This document shows positions 7,763 through 9,063 of a stretch of DNA of 16,093 nucleotides, piece by piece. The notes under the pieces were generated by a model, which ran no database searches, was not told the DNA's origin, and saw only the letters and a program-made list of their open reading frames with translations. The stretch comes from Chloroflexota bacterium (GTDB taxonomy: Bacteria > Chloroflexota > Anaerolineae > Anaerolineales > UBA4823): NCBI GenBank assembly GCA_030613705.1, contig JAUWLJ010000010.1, forward strand, positions 1 through 16,093. Reading direction: 5' to 3'. The translations under genes and the position numbers were made by a program. The stretch's first letter is position 1, and every line of letters starts with the position of its first letter.

Positions 7763-7779
7763 AATTCAATGACTGAATT
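7763..7779. promoter_or_regulatory. Operator-like palindrome, site 1
   Basis: AATTCA (7763-7768), spacer ATGAC, TGAATT (7774-7779): a perfect 6-base inverted repeat with a 5-base spacer. It overlaps the -10 box of the regulator operon and the predicted transcription start. The same arms with the same spacing occur at 9022-9038 ahead of gmd. Placement over the -10 box suggests a repressor site, most simply for the regulator encoded immediately downstream. That assignment is inference. Confidence 0.7.
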
Positions 7780-7804
7780 ATAACTCTTGTCTGTCCCAGG
7801 TCAA
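7777..7804 (-). promoter_or_regulatory. Sigma-70-type promoter of the regulator/export operon
   Basis: Read on the minus strand: -35 TTGACC (7804-7799), a 16-base spacer, and a consensus -10 TATAAT (7782-7777). Transcription would start near 7770, giving a leader of about 20 bases to the ATG at 7750. It should drive the regulator, SDR, fcl, wzm, wzt, glycosyltransferase and sulfotransferase genes. The remaining non-coding bases up to 8032 are A+T-rich; I see no other gene or terminator there. Confidence 0.75.
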
Positions 7805-8032
7805 GGGCTTACACCTGCGGGGTTTCATGAATAACAGCTAATTTTCGCATGTTTCAGGTTGACTGACTATCTTCGTTTAATCGGCATATTATAAAGCTGT
7901 ATTCCGTTAGACTCCTACCTTTTTTAGTACCGATCGTTTACCTGAATTGACATTTAATCTATTGTATAAGATGTATTAGAAAAGCATGGTTCATGGTAAA
8001 TCGGAAATTTGGGGAATTCTATCCTGCTCAGA

Positions 8033-9001
8033 TTAATCGATTTCAAGAGCCAAGCGTTTTAGATCCTCATCAACCATCAAATGAATTAATTCTTCAAATC
8101 CGATTTTTGGCTGCCATTCTAAATCCTTTACAGCTTTACTTGGATCGGCAACCAGGAGATCAACTTCCGCGGGGCGATAGAAACGAGGGTCCTGGACAAC
8201 AAAATCGTTGTAATCCAAGCCAACATGACTGAAGGCGAGATCACACAAATCCCGCACAGATTGTGTGACACCTGTACCGATGACAAAATCTTCAGGTGTT
8301 CCCTGCTGCAGCATCAACCACATCCCCTCAACATAATCGCCAGCAAAACCCCAATCACGCCGGGATTCAAGATTGCCCAAACGCAGTTCATTGGTCAAAC
8401 CAAGTTTAATTCTGGCAACACCATAACTAATTTTACGCGTGACGAATTCCAAGCCTCTCCGCGGACTTTCATGATTGAACAAAATCCCAGAGACAGCATA
8501 TAAGTCATACGATTCGCGATAATTCACAGTGATCCAATGCGCGTAGACTTTCGCCACGCCGTAAGGGCTTCGCGGATAGAAGGGAGTGTTTTCACTCTGG
8601 GGGACTTCGCGGACCTTCCCAAACATTTCACTGGAAGAAGCCTGGTAAAACCGGGTCTGTGGATTGATCAACCGGATTGCTTCCAAGAGACGCGTTACTC
8701 CCAAGGCAGTTACTTCCCCAGTGAGCACAGGCTGGTTCCAAGAAGTCGGAACAAAAGACTGCGCAGCCAAATTGTATACTTCATCGGGTCGATGCCTCTC
8801 GATGACGTCCACGAGGGAGCTTTGATCGTGCAAATCTCCCTGGATTATGGTGATATCGTCCTGGATATGTTTGATTCGCTGAAATGTCACAGTGCTTGAT
8901 CTACGAACCATACCCACCACGTCATATCCTTTAGCCAATAAAAACTCAGCAAGATAGGAGCCATCCTGACCAGTAATTCCGGTGATAATTGCTGTCGGCA
9001 T
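8033..9001 (-). CDS. gmd: GDP-mannose 4,6-dehydratase
   Basis: A 322-residue extended SDR that converts GDP-D-mannose to GDP-4-keto-6-deoxy-D-mannose, the first step to GDP-L-fucose. The N-terminus [17 protein letters not shown] is the family hallmark. [11 protein letters not shown] (74-84), the SSSEMFG active-site strand (122-128, with the catalytic Ser/Glu) and [12 protein letters not shown] with Tyr147 and Lys151 complete the catalytic set. NHESPRRG and [14 protein letters not shown] are GMD-specific substrate and oligomer motifs. The length is at the short end for the family, as in many non-enteric bacteria. The frame stays open upstream to 9094, but that stretch contains the promoter. 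The ATG at 9001 has GGGAGG about 7 bases upstream and gives the canonical N-terminus. The partner enzyme Fcl is encoded in the next operon. Confidence 0.95.
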
Positions 9002-9018
9002 CTGCAGCCTCCCAAATC

Positions 9019-9041
9019 TATAATTCAACGGCTGAATTATA
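9019..9041. promoter_or_regulatory. Operator-like palindrome, site 2
   Basis: TATAATTCA (9019-9027), spacer ACGGC, TGAATTATA (9033-9041): a perfect 9-base inverted repeat. The inner AATTCA-N5-TGAATT core is identical in arms and spacing to site 1 at 7763-7779, and the flank toward the -10 box is also shared. On the minus strand the site contains the gmd -10 hexamer, so a bound protein would compete directly with RNA polymerase. Confidence 0.75.
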
Positions 9042-9063
9042 ACCCTATTTCGGATAGAATCAA
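9036..9063 (-). promoter_or_regulatory. Sigma-70-type promoter of gmd
   Basis: Minus strand: -35 TTGATT (9063-9058), a 16-base spacer, and a perfect -10 TATAAT (9041-9036). The spacing is identical to the regulator-operon promoter. Transcription would begin near 9029, leaving about 28 bases to the gmd ATG with a GGGAGG ribosome binding site. It lets gmd be expressed apart from the flippase-containing genes upstream. Confidence 0.72.

Follow-up and report, generated by a model that had tools for sequence, protein, structure and literature searches.

The window, that is, the whole stretch of 16,093 nucleotides analysed here, is an entire contig of a 2.24 Mb genome (351 contigs, 58% complete). 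On its minus strand, it carries a gene for a winged-helix regulator followed by genes for an SDR protein, an fcl-like GDP-L-fucose synthase, a Wzm/Wzt-type exporter, a capsule-like protein and a sulfotransferase, and gmd lies upstream of the regulator with a promoter of its own (Table 1). The fcl-like protein scored 288.6 bits against NF047922, which is under the curated cut-off of 500. Near the contig end, a fragment at 15740-16012 is similar to the C-terminal region of a family 4 uracil-DNA glycosylase, with scores below the family cut-offs.

Table 1. Genes, promoter elements and predicted operators in the window.
Feature	Position	Strand	Remarks
Sulfotransferase	234..1274	minus	Final gene of the run
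Capsule-like protein, 538 aa	1340..2956	minus	Weak capsule-synthesis similarity, below Pfam cut-off
ABC ATPase with Wzt C-terminal domain	2935..4203	minus	
ABC-2 permease (Wzm-like), polysaccharide exporter	4275..5126	minus	
fcl-like GDP-L-fucose synthase	5177..6202	minus	Nearest solved relatives are GDP-fucose synthases, E from 2.8e-67
sdr2, SDR sugar-nucleotide epimerase/dehydratase	6215..7237	minus	Second gene; 3-base gap to regulator
Winged-helix regulator, 169 aa, HTH_24/MarR type	7241..7750	minus	Long helix and C-terminal alpha/beta domain
Operator 1 (predicted)	7763..7779	.	AATTCA-ATGAC-TGAATT; overlaps -10 and predicted +1 of regulator promoter
Regulator promoter -10 TATAAT	7777..7782	minus	
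Regulator promoter -35 TTGACC	7799..7804	minus	16-base spacer
gmd, GDP-mannose 4,6-dehydratase	8033..9001	minus	TIGR01472, 441.7 bits, above curated cut-off of 415
Operator 2 (predicted)	9022..9038	.	AATTCA-ACGGC-TGAATT; overlaps -10 and predicted +1 of gmd promoter
gmd promoter -10 TATAAT	9036..9041	minus	
gmd promoter -35 TTGATT	9058..9063	minus	16-base spacer

The initial annotation had pointed to two matched copies of the palindrome AATTCA-N5-TGAATT, each embedded in a promoter, and this description was borne out: a pattern scan found the exact palindrome at both places and nowhere else in the window, a promoter scan placed a minus-strand TATAAT over each copy at 16 bases from TTGACC or TTGATT, and the 22-base strings across the core and the -10 agree at 20 positions. 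The ATG of the winged-helix gene (7750) is 12 bases away from operator 1 and that of gmd (9001) 20 bases away from operator 2, while the regulator and gmd promoters match the consensus at 11/12 and 10/12 bases, respectively. Another promoter-like site, on the plus strand at 8995-9024, also scores 10, and the number of promoter-like sites in 7000-9600 (six, with 4.3 expected) is by itself ordinary. With up to two mismatches, the palindrome occurs five times in the window (shuffle mean 1.97), a count reached by 9 of 200 shuffles.

The regulator scored above the gathering cut-offs of both Pfam MarR (PF01047; 27.8 bits, cut-off 24.6) and HTH_24 (PF13412; 42 bits, cut-off 21.9). Its best NCBIfam match is TIGR04176 (MarR_EPS), with an E-value of 2.1e-18 over residues 10-98 and 66.3-67.3 bits, under the curated cut-off of 88, and its score against FabT NF050133 was 25.9 bits, under the curated cut-off of 200. 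The AlphaFold2 model (mean pLDDT 87.7) contains a winged helix, a 38-residue helix (68-105) and then a small alpha/beta domain (about 110-153). The top Foldseek match of the model is DNA-bound FabT (6jbx), and the best structural matches are MarR- and PadR-type regulators, with VIA-align rows that span residues 2-94, i.e., the part without the C-terminal domain. Among 32 aligned sequences, the helix-turn-helix stretch L32-H42 is invariant, as are G115, G117, D118, C123 and C127 of the C-terminal domain, which is made up of a strand, a GDGD loop and a helix with CxxxC. At least 7892 proteins match the regulator at E 1e-3 or better, and the wider family is therefore large.

Conservation was followed in 61 genomes (its own and 60 others), which are related, so that counts among them are not independent. 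Regulator orthologues (E 1e-3 or better) were found in 49 of the 61; a weak second match in G049 (E 7e-4) and four paralogues were not counted among them. The promoter-embedded form of the palindrome, TATAATTCA-N5-TGAATT, is present upstream of 48 of the 49 orthologues, exactly in 46 and with one mismatch in two (G038, G040). The 49th orthologue, in G018, has no site of its own and stands behind gmd, which ends about 90 bases before it and carries a site with one mismatch. Moreover, exact sites are not scattered over these genomes: 74 rows reduce to 70 distinct sites in 47 of the 61 genomes. Of these sites, 46 are upstream of the regulator and 21 upstream of gmd (67/70 together), and only three stand elsewhere, namely, before an LPG_synthase_TM protein (G033) and two family-2 glycosyltransferases (G006, G021), while the reversed control pattern gave no exact match in the 61 genomes. 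Exact sites stand at both regulator and gmd in 20 genomes. When one mismatch was allowed, matches appeared in 52/61 genomes, including G045 and G059, which have no regulator, and the reversed control matched three times; the census was limited to exact sites because one mismatch adds scattered places and these three control matches, and surroundings were read for some of the extra places. One doubtful site, in G003 (L294, about 2329), is some 70 bases upstream of an ORF whose translation looks like IMP dehydrogenase. In G024 (L040), a second palindrome follows close behind the first upstream of the regulator, and G005 and G007 apparently have part of one, which suggests tandem operators in some genomes.

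In addition to the regulator, gmd is the other recurrent location of the site. Among the 85 gmd-like genes of the 61 genomes (E 1e-90 or better), 84 were scanned over 300 upstream bases and the remaining one, in G041, was read apart. The scanned upstream regions split into two groups, with 0-2 mismatches in 24/84 and four or more in 60/84, and the G041 gene has a site with one mismatch. A site with 0-2 mismatches therefore precedes 25/85 gmd-like genes, spread over 25 genomes; the regulator is present in 24 of these. Among genomes with a gmd-like gene, the site stands before gmd in 24/45 that have the regulator versus 1/11 that lack it (Fisher 0.015), a modest contrast. The single exception, G019 (84% complete), has the gmd site, and no regulator was found in its genome, including roughly 11 kb upstream and 4 kb downstream of gmd. 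Conversely, 21 of the 45 regulator-bearing genomes have no site before gmd; in two of these (G042, G056), the regulator operon itself contains gmd, and no link was seen in the other 19. A gmd within the regulator operon also occurs in G043, which has a second gmd with its own site. The site is kept at gmd even far from the regulator (about 62 kb in G047, 50 kb in G060 and 19 kb in G007), and in some genomes the two are on different contigs. In the window, gmd is preceded on its strand by a series of glycan genes and may therefore also be transcribed from upstream. As a side observation, TATAAT is found on both strands of the gmd operator of G028 (L131, about 6747-8754), which is shared with a divergent gene for a 644-aa FHA-domain protein of no evident glycan role.

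The operon behind the regulator is also conserved. In 48 relatives, the gene order is (sdr2), [gmd], fcl, wzm, wzt and the capsule-like gene, to the extent that the available sequence covers it, with two exceptions: no wzt match follows wzm within the 10 kb available in G003, and the capsule-like gene lies 2.5 kb further downstream in G021. The regulator thus heads a series that includes fcl, Wzm and Wzt homologues, which is the exopolysaccharide-cluster setting expressed in the name of TIGR04176. The fcl gene is present in 42 of the 48 relatives; it is not before wzm in three (G005, G014, G038) and lies past the end of the stretch in three others (G010, G025, G041), which are hence out of the count, so that fcl precedes the exporter in 43/46 operons, the one in the window included. 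Because fcl is absent before the exporter in the other three, the Wzm/Wzt-type exporter is the steadier partner of the regulator, and GDP-fucose synthesis is usual, not universal. The 538-aa capsule-like gene is kept in the operon of many relatives, and a sulfotransferase gene was also found behind the regulator in G002, G004, G016 and G056.

The simplest account of these observations is an autorepressor that sits over the -10 and predicted +1. We give a probability of roughly 85% to the reading, made from sequence, that the 169-aa MarR/HTH_24-type protein is an autoregulatory repressor of its own export operon and of gmd through one palindrome. What would be expected of an autoregulated regulon is found in two respects: a conserved palindrome lies over the regulator's own promoter (0-1 mismatch in 48/49 orthologues), and the same site recurs at another target that is located apart from it, gmd, where it is exact in 21 genomes. 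In the proposed mechanism, a dimer of the regulator would bind the consensus gTTATAATTCA-RYNRY-TGAATTTTRGA, which overlaps both the -10 and the predicted transcription start, and would exclude RNA polymerase. Site 1 would control a presumably co-transcribed series of genes, i.e., the regulator, SDR, fcl-like protein, Wzm/Wzt-type exporter, capsule-like protein and sulfotransferase, while site 2 would control gmd, and, consequently, precursor synthesis and export of one surface glycan would rise and fall together. Release might occur by a signal acting through the C-terminal alpha/beta domain.

It is unlikely that the same protein activates from the same sites, or acts both ways depending on a ligand. 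The regulatory sign is not readable from sequence, and both a recognisable -35 and an extended -10 are missing at 11 of 72 sites. However, the palindrome covers the -10 and predicted +1, and a dimer bound over these elements normally blocks polymerase. Furthermore, 61 of the 72 sites (48 regulator and 24 gmd sites, picked by at most two mismatches to the core) have one of the two elements: TTGAC or TTGAT within 15-18 bases in 52 (spacer of 16 bases in 48, of 17 in four), and a TGn extended -10 in nine that lack such a -35. No site has both. This exclusivity (Fisher 2e-6, with relatedness not corrected and four of the nine from one genus) is the pattern expected of a working -10, and TATAAT behaves as a real one.

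Even less probable is that the palindrome belongs to another, unlinked regulator, of which the winged-helix gene would be just one target, as could be argued from G019 and from G296, another genome with a site and no detected regulator. Against this, regulator and site co-occur over 301 Chloroflexota genomes, and a paralogue of the regulator carries a variant of the palindrome in the promoter of its own gene. In this phylum sample, which shares G000, G047, G049 and G060 with the 61-genome set, the exact site was found in 22 genomes and the regulator (E 1e-20) in 22, with both in 21 and each alone in one (Fisher 4e-30, relatedness not corrected), and the co-occurrence is thus close to one to one. 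The genome with only the regulator by exact count, G257, has a one-mismatch site, and the exact site of G296 stands before a gatB-like gene (L151), named from its translated start, where it looks like chance. The 43 rows of the phylum sample represent 41 distinct sites, 20 of them before the regulator, 17 before gmd and four elsewhere, i.e., before the gatB-like gene, an Rrf2-type gene (G281) and a gene for a membrane protein of about 530 aa (G086), names that all rest on reading translated starts, and at one unassigned place in G325. In G130, a site is present at gmd, and none within one mismatch was found before the regulator, which lies about 1.9 kb further on.

Two further side observations were made. 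The regulator operator in G346 (L331, about 2779-2801) has TATAAT on both strands and faces a short divergent ORF. As well, a palindrome resembling the operator, CATAATTCA-N5-TGAATTAT, was seen in the promoters of Rrf2-type genes, so named from their translated starts (L155, L295 and L301, with L155 and L301 being one place in G281), and is probably a separate system; these lookalike sites and the one before the gatB-like gene (L151) were judged to be outside the regulon.

There is very little likelihood that the conserved stretch is just a strong sigma-70 promoter or a 5' leader RNA element and no operator. The stretch does include TATAAT and extends into the predicted transcript, but the TGAATT arm is needless for a promoter, yet it is exact together with the rest of the core before 46/49 orthologues, a measure of core strictness that is free of selection. 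In the 72 sites from which the consensus was drawn, selection by mismatches inflates the information of the core and leaves the flanks unaffected, and the TTRGA flank, unused in choosing sites, is likewise preferred. For an RNA element, the predicted start inside the palindrome would leave only one arm transcribed. Covariation in the N5 spacer was not seen beyond composition, with strict complementary pairs in 54 of 144 (shuffle mean 63) and purine/pyrimidine pairing in 125 (126 in shuffles), and RYNRY is therefore a column preference only. An RNA leader element was rejected, as an Rfam search of the window gave no match.

That the two sites are a chance pair has a negligible probability and was rejected on conservation across relatives: 0.67 bare palindromes are expected in its own genome and two-mismatch near-matches are common there, but the 70 exact sites with no reversed-control match, the phylum co-occurrence and the orthologue upstream regions contradict it. 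The expectation comes from a first-order Markov model built on part of the genome, which gives 0.014 for TATAATTCA-N5-TGAATT. The two window copies are the only exact AATTCA-N5-TGAATT in the genome, 13 more places have one mismatch, and up to two mismatches give 186 places versus 51 for the reversed pattern. With the longer promoter part included (TTATAATTCA-N5-TGAATT), both window sites are exact, and reading the gmd site on the plus strand gives one mismatch; the search for a third target in this genome gave, elsewhere, places with two mismatches at best (contigs 67 and 202). The number of bare palindromes is therefore nothing unusual; chance does not explain where the two sites stand, their promoter-embedded form and, most of all, how well they are conserved.

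Under the autorepressor reading, it can also be asked which genes are held together. The initial annotation had proposed that the regulator represses both promoters and so coordinates the two split GDP-fucose genes, and as a reading of the sequence this is largely supported; two of the outcomes it had named as refuting, a scatter of sites of equal quality and the lack of the palindrome before close orthologues, did not turn up. The site is present at both the regulator operon and gmd, but fcl is missing before the exporter in 3/46 operons, and 21 of 45 regulator-bearing genomes with gmd have no site before it. For these two reasons, the term exported-glycan regulon fits better than GDP-fucose regulon.

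The kind of system is known. FabT, a MarR-family repressor of fatty acid synthesis, is described in PMC13046290 as encoded by the first gene of a multigene biosynthetic operon under its control. The regulator here likewise heads a biosynthetic operon and, as noted, has the FabT-DNA complex as the top Foldseek match of its model; unlike FabT, it is linked to a different pathway, has an extra C-terminal alpha/beta domain and scores far below the family cut-off. It resembles the TIGR04176 MarR family EPS-associated transcriptional regulator in its best NCBIfam match and glycan-cluster context, whereas the model of that family has a length of 105, compared with 169 for the protein with its further domain, and the score is below the cut-off; titles and abstract starts searched by family name or accession yielded no paper on an operator of this family. 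Compared with MarR/PadR-type repressors that have palindromic operators over their own promoters, the target genes and operator sequence differ. The suggestion that regulon and operator might be undescribed agrees with a literature search of titles and abstract starts, in which no description was found and which left most subscription journals outside its coverage.

The analysis yields precise predictions of a regulator, its operator and its targets for surface-glycan production in Anaerolineales and related groups, with the predicted wiring found in many genomes of this order. The predicted operator is short, strict and portable, and can be used to find which glycan genes belong together. All 15 named relatives are metagenome-assembled genomes, and genetics in these organisms is therefore hard.

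A broader proposal, which we hold only tentatively and regard as possible but rather doubtful, is that the C-terminal domain is a sensor of a nucleotide sugar or an intermediate of the pathway, so that the production of an exported glycan would be under feedback control across the order, and that the ATTCA-N5-TGAAT self-operator is a general code of the large glycan-cluster winged-helix family, diversified by flanks in paralogues. The paralogue of the regulator has 36-39% identity in the relatives and 33-38% in the phylum sample, and its own gene is preceded by TTCA-N5-TGAA in all seven loci read, with the left arm GAGAATTCA in six and CAGAATTCA in one; self-binding through an ATTCA half-site may therefore be a family habit. 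In these loci (L200-L206), the related palindrome lies at the equivalent promoter position, and the paralogue promoters of L203 and L204 have the long perfect form GTGAGAATTCA-N5-TGAATTCTCAC.
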